A stretch of 64,000 nucleotides of DNA. It comes from Candidatus Polarisedimenticolaceae bacterium. Its GTDB lineage: Bacteria > Acidobacteriota > Polarisedimenticolia > Polarisedimenticolales > DASRJG01. The stretch spans positions 1 to 64,000 of the forward strand of contig DASUCV010000009.1 of assembly GCA_036275915.1 (NCBI GenBank), written 5' to 3'. The notes beneath the pieces were generated by a model that searched no databases, was not told the DNA's origin, and saw only the letters and a list, made by a program, of their open reading frames with translations. The first letter of the stretch is position 1. Each line of letters starts with the position of its first letter. The position numbers were made by a program, and so were the translations under genes. Positions 631 to 51,787 of the stretch are shown piece after piece.

Positions 631-685
631 CTAAGGGGACAGTAACCGAGTTTTTCTTACCCGCGCAGTTCGCGCGTAAGAAAAA
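631..685. repeat. REP-like palindromic element, family A (incomplete)
   Basis: The element starts with the head AAGGGGACAGTAACCG and continues into the arms TTTTTCTTAC (651-660) and GTAAGAAAAA (676-685), perfect over 10 bp around a GC-rich loop. The outer right half (expected CGGTTACTGTCCCC) is missing, so the copy looks truncated. The head GGGGACAG is shared with elements at 8718-8786, 44798-44868 and 51734-51787. It lies between a stop on the plus strand and a convergent stop at 689, so it may also act as a terminator. Confidence 0.7.
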
Positions 686-7711: not shown

Positions 7712-8409
7712 GCGTCTGGCCGAAGGTGCTGCCGCCGCTCGATCCGGCGACGCGCCGCATCCACGACGAGTTCATGCACGACTGGCTCGAGGCGCTACCT
7801 CGGCGCTACGGGTTCGCCGACCGGTTCAACCACCGCTACCCGGCCTCGAGGAGCGGCGGCTTCACGACGACGCTCGAGATCGGCGCGGGCACCGGCGAGC
7901 ACCTGAGATGGGAGAACCTTTCCGAGGCACAGAAGGAGGGTTACGTCGCCCTCGACCTGCGTGAGAACGTCGCGGCGCGATTCCGCGAGCGCCACCCCGG
8001 CGTCCGCGTCGTCGTCGGCGATTGCCAGACCCGGCTCGCGTTCGACGACGCCTCCTTCGACCGGATCCTCGCCATCCACGTCTTCGAGCACCTTCCCGAT
8101 CTGCCGCGCGCGATCGACGAGGCGCACCGCCTCCTGGCGAAGCCCGCGGGACGCCTTCACGTCGTCATCCCCTGCGAGGGCGGCCTCGCCTACACGCTCG
8201 CGCGCCGCATCTCCGCGCAGCGCCAGTTCGAGCGTCGCTATCGCCTGCCGTACCGCCAGTTCATCGAGCGTGAGCACTTGAGCCGCCCCGGCGAGGTGGT
8301 GCGCGAGCTCGAGCGGAGGTTCACCGTCGTCCACCGGGCGTTCTTCCCGATGAAGCTGCCGGCGATCTTCTGCAATCTCTTCATCGGCCTCACGCTGGCG
8401 CCGCGATGA
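7708..8409 (+). CDS. class I SAM-dependent methyltransferase
   Basis: 233 residues. The SAM-binding motif I is LEIGAGTGEH (about residues 53-62), followed by YVALDLRENV (motif II acidic residue), VVVGDCQTRLAFDDASFDRIL and the motif IV region HVFEHLPDLPRAIDEAHRLL. This is the Methyltransf_11/23 type common in polysaccharide or lipid-linked sugar clusters. The start ATG overlaps the stop of the GT9 gene (ATGA) and its own stop overlaps the next start in the same manner, so the three genes are translationally coupled. The methyl acceptor is probably a glycan or its precursor, by context only. Confidence 0.88.
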   Translation: MSVWPKVLPPLDPATRRIHDEFMHDWLEALPRRYGFADRFNHRYPASRSGGFTTTLEIGAGTGEHLRWENLSEAQKEGYVALDLRENVAARFRERHPGVRVVVGDCQTRLAFDDASFDRILAIHVFEHLPDLPRAIDEAHRLLAKPAGRLHVVIPCEGGLAYTLARRISAQRQFERRYRLPYRQFIEREHLSRPGEVVRELERRFTVVHRAFFPMKLPAIFCNLFIGLTLAPR

Positions 8410-10025
8410 AGCGTTTTCCGTGGACCGCCGCGGCTGCGATCGTCATCACCGTTTTCGTCGTAGCGCTCGATCTTCGGTTCGCCCTCCACGCGGGCGGGCT
8501 CTGGCGCGACGAGTCCGCGACGGCGCATTTCGCGACGTTGCCGGCCGTCGGCGACATCGTGAGCCGGCTGCACCTCGACAACTTCCCGTGCCTCTCGCTC
8601 GCCGTCATCCGTGCGTGGTCCGCGGCGTTCGGCCCCGGCGACGCCGGCTACCGCGCGCTGGGGTTCCTCGTCGCCCTCGGCGTGCTGGCGGCCTTGTGGC
8701 TCCACGGCGCACTGATTGGAAATAAGGGGACAGGTACCGATTTTCAGAATCCGATTCTGAAAATCGGTACCTGTCCCCTTATTTCCCTGGTGCTCTTCGC
8801 AGCGAACCCTGTCGTGGTTCGCGCGATCTCGTCGATCCGGCCGTACGGGATCGGGGCGACGCTCCTCGTCCTCGCGCACGCGCTCGTCTGGCGCGCGACG
8901 GAGGCGCCGTCGCGGAGATCGTTCGCGACCGCCGCGATCGTCTCGGTCCTCGCCGTGCAGACGCTCTACCAGAACGCGATCCTCCTCGGCGCGATCGGTG
9001 TCTCGGCGGCGGCCGCGATCGCCGTCATTCGACCGCGCTCGGCGTGGATCCCGCTCGCGATCGGCGGAGTCGCCGCGGTATCGCTTCTCCCCTACGCCGG
9101 GTTCGTGCGGCGCGCGCAGGAGTGGTCGGTCCTCAATCGCGGCAGCGTGACGCTCGATCACCTCGTCTCCGTGTTCGGGTCGATGCTCTCTTCGGCCGGG
9201 CCGGCGGCGGTTCTGCTCGCGGCGCTCGCGGCGCTCGTCGCGGCGGCCGCAGGCCTACGACGCTCGAGACAGGACGGCGGACGCACGCTGTATGCGCTCC
9301 TCACGCTCGTCCTCGCGACGCTCGGCTTCCTCTTCTTCCTCCGCCTGCTCAGCATGCCGACGCAGATCTGGTACTACGTCCTTCCGTCGGCGGTCGCGGC
9401 CGTCTCGATCGACACGATCCTCGCGGCCGCGCCGAAGCCCCGTGTCGCGGCGCGCGGCGTCGCCGCGCTCGTGGGCCTCGCGCTCGTCGCCAGCGGCGCC
9501 TGGGCGGGCACCGCCGTGCGGCAGACGAACGCCGACCTCGTCGCCGCCGCCGTGCGCGCGGCGGCGAGGCCCGGCGATCTCGTCCTCGTCCACCCATGGT
9601 ATTGCGCGATCACGCTCACCCGTTACGGAACGGGCTCCGCCGCGATCGTTTCGATCCCGCCGCTCGACGATCTCTCGATCCACCGCTACGACCTCCTGAA
9701 GGCGCGCATGCAGGAGACCGACCCGATGGCGGCGCTCCGCCCACGCATCGACGGCGCGCTCCGCTCGGGCGCCAGGGTCTGGTACGCGGGCGATCTCGAG
9801 CTGCCCCCGCCCGGCACCGACCCGCAAGCGCCGCCGCCGGCACCCGTTCCCGGGATCGGCTGGAACGAGGGCGCGTATCTCGACGCGTGGTCGGCACAAG
9901 CCGCCGGCTGGCTCCGCTCGGAGGCGCGCGAGGTCCGCCAGGTGCAGGTCGAGGCGCCGGGGCCGGTGAACCCGCTCGAGACGCTGCCGCTCTACGTCTT
10001 CAGCGGCTGGCGCGGACCGGCGTAG
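8406..10025 (+). CDS. GT-C membrane glycosyltransferase-like protein with in-frame REP insert
   Basis: 539 residues, about 10 hydrophobic segments followed by a soluble C-terminal part. The first periplasmic loop has GLWRDESATAHFA, the acidic WRDE motif typical of PMT/ArnT-like GT-C enzymes that use polyprenyl-phosphate sugars. Residues 105-127 (NKGTGTDFQNPILKIGTCPL region) are encoded entirely by a 69-bp palindromic element and sit in a loop just after a predicted helix; the reading frame is preserved. The start ATG overlaps the previous stop. The C-terminal portion includes VLVHPWYCAITLTRYG and ELPPPGTDPQ. Whether the enzyme remains active is unknown. Confidence 0.85.
   Translation: MKRFPWTAAAAIVITVFVVALDLRFALHAGGLWRDESATAHFATLPAVGDIVSRLHLDNFPCLSLAVIRAWSAAFGPGDAGYRALGFLVALGVLAALWLHGALIGNKGTGTDFQNPILKIGTCPLISLVLFAANPVVVRAISSIRPYGIGATLLVLAHALVWRATEAPSRRSFATAAIVSVLAVQTLYQNAILLGAIGVSAAAAIAVIRPRSAWIPLAIGGVAAVSLLPYAGFVRRAQEWSVLNRGSVTLDHLVSVFGSMLSSAGPAAVLLAALAALVAAAAGLRRSRQDGGRTLYALLTLVLATLGFLFFLRLLSMPTQIWYYVLPSAVAAVSIDTILAAAPKPRVAARGVAALVGLALVASGAWAGTAVRQTNADLVAAAVRAAARPGDLVLVHPWYCAITLTRYGTGSAAIVSIPPLDDLSIHRYDLLKARMQETDPMAALRPRIDGALRSGARVWYAGDLELPPPGTDPQAPPPAPVPGIGWNEGAYLDAWSAQAAGWLRSEAREVRQVQVEAPGPVNPLETLPLYVFSGWRGPA
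8718..8786. repeat. REP-like palindrome, family C, inside a coding sequence
   Basis: Two perfect 33-bp arms (8718-8750 and 8754-8786) flank a 3-base spacer CCG. Total length is 69 bp, exactly 23 codons, so the host gene stays in frame. The outer end reads AATAAGGGGACAG and shares GGGGACAG with the other elements in the window. No transposase gene is nearby, in keeping with a non-autonomous element mobilised by a REP-associated (RAYT) transposase elsewhere. Confidence 0.92.
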
Positions 10026-44797: not shown

Positions 44798-44868
44798 AGT
44801 CACCGCGTTTTTCTTACCCAATCGTAGCGCGGAGTTTCGGAAGCTGTCCCCTCTTCGGTTACTGTCCC
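44798..44868. repeat. mosaic REP-like element (families A and B)
   Basis: Three pieces of the palindromes elsewhere are joined: 44798-44817 matches the family A arm at 641-660 in 18 of 20 positions; 44831-44855 matches the right arm of the family B element at 51764-51788 completely; 44856-44868 matches the missing right end of family A (CGGTTACTGTCCC). It lies just before the GT2 start, so its last part may serve as promoter. Confidence 0.7.
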
Positions 44869-51733: not shown

Positions 51734-51787
51734 AGAGGGGACAGCTTCCGAAACTCGCCCCTCGGAGTTTCGGAAGCTGTCCCCTCT
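51734..51787. repeat. REP-like palindrome, family B
   Basis: Perfect 23-bp arms (51734-51756 and 51765-51787) with an 8-base loop GCCCCTCG. The outer end reads AGAGGGGACAG, sharing the GGGGACAG head with the other elements. It lies between convergent genes and touches the stop codon of the outer-membrane protein, so it may also terminate transcription. Confidence 0.88.

Follow-up and report, generated by a model that had tools for sequence, protein, structure and literature searches.

A palindromic repeat with TIRYT-type ends read in frame in a likely GT-C-type glycosyltransferase gene of a Candidatus Polarisedimenticolaceae genome

The window analyzed here is a 64,000-nucleotide stretch (positions 1 to 64,000, forward strand, of contig DASUCV010000009.1, assembly GCA_036275915.1) from a Candidatus Polarisedimenticolaceae bacterium. 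It contains a gene for a predicted membrane protein that is joined by an ATGA overlap to an upstream methyltransferase gene and neighbored by glycosyltransferase genes. A Pfam search of the encoded protein returned no significant match; among its distant homologs, those at loci L094 and L009 matched PMT_2 above the cutoff and that at L093 fell just below it. Based on these matches, a W-R-D-E motif, and the glycosyltransferase neighbors, the host is likely a GT-C-type enzyme. The features of the locus are as follows.

8406 to 10025, forward strand: host gene of 539 codons, encoding a PMT_2/GT-C-like membrane glycosyltransferase with the W-R-D-E motif at residues 33-36, after the first helix
8718 to 8786, no strand: perfect palindrome (arms 8718-8751 and 8753-8786, center 8752), read from its arms and the genome-wide family as a miniature TIRYT-type inverted-repeat element (class defined below) of the GGTACCGATTTTC subtype
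8730 to 8774, no strand: 45-bp core matching the net gain in length, placed by alignment, which leaves 12 bp at each outer end of the palindrome on native positions
8775 to 8786, forward strand: right-arm end, CCC CTT ATT TCC, encoding PLIS (residues 124-127) and aligned to the conserved PLIS, PLVS, PLLS, or PLLT of homologs

An arm search showed that the 69-bp palindrome has arms of 34 nt that are 100% complementary and separated by 1 nt; the arm reads GGAAATAAGGGGACAGGTACCGATTTTCAGAATC, and both ends carry GGGGACAG, which fits the consensus GGGGWSAS. The likelihood that perfect 34-bp arms arose by chance is negligible. The initial annotation had described perfect 33-bp arms; their perfection stands, and their length is corrected to 34 nt plus one center base. 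Its statement that the palindrome lies in frame in a gene that stays open was confirmed, as the 69 bp form codons 105-127 of the open reading frame, contain no stop, and encode GNKGTGTDFQNPILKIGTCPLIS, with a predicted tryptic peptide, GTGTDFQNPILK, at residues 108-119. The Gly-Thr frame (GGG-ACA-GGT) is the only open forward frame of the palindrome, since both others contain stops (AAA TAA and TTC TGA). Codon bias is strong and keeps the same frame to the left and right of the palindrome, which argues for one gene rather than two. An assembly artifact at the inverted repeat might be suspected from the several contig ends of this assembly that fall at such elements, but it is extremely improbable here, where the two halves of the gene lie on either side of the palindrome, correctly ordered and in frame, and match the same full-length homologs.

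A low-confidence AlphaFold model of the host protein (pLDDT 38.7) places residues 105-124 between helices at 79-104 and 125-132. This poor model agrees with the earlier placement of the insert in a loop after a membrane helix and weakly supports a position in the short loop that joins predicted membrane helices 2 and 3, at a distance from the W-R-D-E motif. By the topology usual for GT-C enzymes, this loop would be cytoplasmic and distant from the catalytic loop. Given its location in a short interhelix loop away from the motif, the insertion is probably tolerated.

The homologs of the host protein share 27 to 40% identity with it, and a scan of genome contigs for relatives yielded a single one, a Rokubacteria metagenome-assembled genome. 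To compare loop lengths, spacing was measured in the seven closest homologs from an arginine where the second long helix begins to an S-x-R-[PG]-[YH]-G motif. The distance was 45 residues in all seven homologs versus 60 in the window protein, a net gain of exactly 15 residues (45 bp). The loop sequence itself varied among homologs. The comparison includes a conserved locus, since the homolog at L089 also has the neighboring GT9 (heptosyltransferase-family) gene, with 53% identity. An insert is thus absent from the homologs, as had been proposed, but it amounts to 15 residues rather than the 23 first reported, because the 8 outermost codons (four per arm, or 24 of the 69 bp) align to native positions. 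The usual reading of such a palindrome as wholly extra sequence is thereby corrected to a net gain of 45 of its 69 bp. At the left end, G105 aligns with a glycine common among the homologs; at the right end, the residues at 124-127 occur in homologs without any palindrome, which for these residues refutes the first claim by the standard that the initial annotation itself had set. The codons for PLIS are atypical of the host gene, in which CTT accounts for 3 of 70 leucine codons and ATT for 2 of 24 isoleucine codons, and CCC CTT ATT TCC equals the standard end of the element. For these two reasons, the DNA of this stretch probably derives from the element, with the amino acids being native. Either the insertion replaced native bases, possibly steered by similarity, or it entered a palindromic target that existed beforehand.

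The element was surveyed in the whole genome (4.53 Mb in 24 contigs). The end motif GGGGACAGNNNCCNA had 177 exact matches, versus 1 for the reversed control, and the end motif AATAAGGGGACAG, allowing up to 2 mismatches, had 93 matches versus 10. Some 50 complete palindromic loci were examined; they vary widely in length, and all share the GGGGACAG end. By inner sequence they fall into the subtypes CTTCCGAAACTC, CTACCGAATT, TAACCGAGTTTTTCTTAC, and GGTACCGATTTTC or GGCACCGATTTTC, the last (GGTACC) being the subtype of the palindrome at 8718-8786. The CTTCCGAAACTC subtype, with 48 bp between the motif ends, was the most common among the loci read. The window holds three further representatives of the family.

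635 to 649, forward strand: element end, TAACC subtype, with the right end truncated
44837 to 44851, reverse strand: element end, CTTCC subtype
51737 to 51784, no strand: complete palindromic copy of the CTTCC subtype, with 48 bp between motif ends, outside the in-frame set

Across 148 relatives, genomes from outside the order had the motif at near the control level; within the order, two genomes (G002 and G006) had 13 and 26 matches, mostly of the CAACC subtype. The ends of contigs C3, C7, C9, C15, and C19 (L031, L032, L043, L051, L069, and L074) fall inside long palindromic elements, and the end of C9 and the start of C15 have a hairpin arm in common, and these contigs may adjoin.

At five loci, an element of one subtype sits at the exact dyad center of a palindrome of another subtype, whose central loop appears to have been replaced.

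C4:730039-730148: nested copy (L119)
C4:793302-793423: nested copy (L039)
C6:89271-89380: nested copy (L125)
C10:87527: nested copy (L133)
C16:29221: nested copy (L071)

In many other copies (for example, L036 at C4:510521-510568, L019, L073, L063, and L040), symmetric flanks extend 10 to 25 bases past the element ends. Nesting and symmetric flanks together suggest either a preference for hairpin centers or outward growth of the palindrome by inverse copying of the flank.

These observations bear on whether the host gene already had a native 24-bp palindrome (GGAAATAAGGGG/CCCCTTATTTCC, encoding GNKGPLIS) into whose exact center the 45-bp core was inserted, in which case the empty site would have read GGAAATAAGGGGCCCCTTATTTCC. 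Such an origin would account for a gain of exactly 45 bp, GNKGPLIS suits the loop length of the homologs, and many copies in the genome have symmetric flanks, several being nested at the centers of other elements. However, AATAAGGGGACAG recurs as an element end at many unrelated sites, which points to element rather than target sequence, and the host gene rarely uses the codons AAT, CTT, and ATT. A preexisting palindromic target is further disfavored because the genome search found no unoccupied TAAGGGG...CCCCTTA site, and we consider this origin unlikely.

The genome has two Y1_Tnp genes. The first (L024, C1:148369-149154; Pfam Y1_Tnp, 6.4e-12) encodes an IS200-like transposase of the Y1/RAYT type and lies between GGGGACAGTAACCGAGTTTTTCTTACC and the reverse complement of that sequence, at C1:148241-148255 and C1:149195-149209, which are the ends of TAACC palindromes. 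About 110 residues follow its Y1 domain, with no helix-turn-helix Pfam match at an E value of ≤1; a C-terminal domain of that type is a feature of TnpA-REP subclass 2.1. No transposase with the GGTACC-subtype ends of the window's palindrome was found in the genome. The second transposase gene (L055, C10:47899-48579) lies beside a GGGGACATTCTGCTTTT end that represents a further palindrome family, and its right inverted repeat looks to have been lost.

Tyrosine transposases with terminal inverted repeats bearing GGGGWSAS are described as TIRYT (PMC3733652) and correspond largely to TnpA-REP subclass 2.1 (PMC6006769). Since the GGGGACAG ends fit GGGGWSAS and related ends flank a Y1 transposase, the palindrome is best read, from its sequence, as a miniature, nonautonomous TIRYT-type element. 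The family resembles TIRYT and TIR repeats, as characterized in those two papers, in its GGGGWSAS-type ends, its Y1 transposase flanked by TAACC-subtype repeats, and its scattered dimeric palindromes. A classical REP of the GTAG/CGTC superfamily was also considered and was rejected, as the hairpin end has no GTAG or CGTC tag. Of the original designation as a REP-like element, a repeat of probable mobile origin thus survives, but one with TIRYT-type ends in place of a GTAG/CGTC REP.

We consider it likely that a TIRYT-type element landed in frame in the GT-C-like gene, replacing 24 native bases and adding 15 residues to a protein that probably remains functional. The palindrome would represent the paired terminal inverted repeats of a Y1/HUH tyrosine transposase element, nonautonomous itself and presumably mobilized by a Y1 transposase. 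It would have landed in the short loop that joins predicted membrane helices 2 and 3 of the GT-C-like glycosyltransferase, and with the Gly-Thr frame kept on landing, the ribosome would read through and add the 15 residues. The element ends would have taken the place of the 24 native bases, with the right end reencoding the native PLIS at the start of the next helix, and the protein with the longer loop is probably still made and functional. The palindrome, its repeat family, a transposase bearing the same kind of ends, the open frame, and the exact gain of 15 residues over the homologs are the observed parts of this account; mobilization by the transposase, replacement of native bases, translation, and tolerance are inferred from them. 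The exact loop spacing in the homologs makes this a clean site at which to ask how TIRYT-type elements integrate.

The perfect arms suggest a recent event, and the gene could be a recently hit pseudogene, or the insertion harmful, with the frame staying open by luck, as it would in one frame of three. The RNA fold of the 181-nt region around the palindrome is very strong (−105.7 kcal/mol, z −10.2); the hairpin may influence translation or mRNA decay, and hindered translation would fit a harmful insertion. However, the rest of the open reading frame is intact to a normal C terminus with undisturbed codon bias, the gain is an exact multiple of a codon, PLIS is kept, and, among the matches listed, no other full-size copy lies in frame inside a gene. 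We regard a pseudogene or harmful insertion as rather improbable and a tolerated insertion as the preferred reading. The perfect arms also speak for a recent, tolerated insertion instead of the earlier view that the element had been adopted as coding sequence. Domestication, with selection for a function of the new loop, could draw on the element-like coding sequence present in one frame in several genes of this genome, but the loop is variable among homologs, the peptide is not known to be conserved, and the arms are undiverged; it is very unlikely.

In-frame palindromic repeats are already known from Rickettsia and other bacteria (PMC10969869; PMC3733652). The Rickettsia palindromic elements (RPEs; Ogata et al. 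2000, 2002, as cited in PMC10969869) also lie in frame in unrelated genes and add a short peptide, a likeness of behavior only; as outlined in PMC10969869, they occupy a different host, have a much higher in-frame fraction, and are about 150 bp long. Dimers of GTAG/CGTC REPs within open reading frames, encoding 20 to 30 residues, are likewise noted in PMC3733652, but the window's element has neither tag. Where intragenic in-frame copies are discussed in PMC3733652 and PMC6006769, it is for GTAG/CGTC REPs and RPEs rather than for TIR repeats. With the present case, TIRYT-type repeats in a GC-rich genome join the palindromic mobile repeats that are used in frame as coding sequence.

The case, which the initial annotation called rare, is also not alone: among the sampled loci, at least four other genes read element-like sequence in the Gly-Thr frame, in partial or short hairpin forms. 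In queG (L084, C24:6369), KEGTASESHPN/NYKEGTASESHPNSRRGR is in frame without net lengthening relative to the solved Bacillus QueG; a membrane protein (L066) has RGTGTDSPYLSLSPL in frame and is a few residues longer than its homologs; TGTVPVFEGTVPSVGTLPS (L027, C2:136469-136520) lies in frame in a linker of variable length; and an oxidase-like membrane protein carries EGTVPLKTGTVP (L026, C2:131809-131842) in frame in its C-terminal tail. Because queG is not lengthened and the L027 linker varies in length, neither of these two sequences proves a clean insertion. Only the window's palindrome is full size and in frame among the matches listed. It is conceivable, though doubtful, that beyond Rickettsia, TIRYT repeats are a recurrent source of in-frame loops in which Gly-Thr is the one privileged open frame, and that they integrate not by simple insertion but by replacing end-like native sequence, here the PLIS codons, or hairpin centers. 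Isolated 13-base end matches that had one mismatch and fell mid-gene (e.g., C1:53950) were attributed to chance and left out of the in-frame count. The L026 and L027 genes lie about 5 kb apart, and both carry tandem short GGGGACAGTCCCC hairpins in frame.
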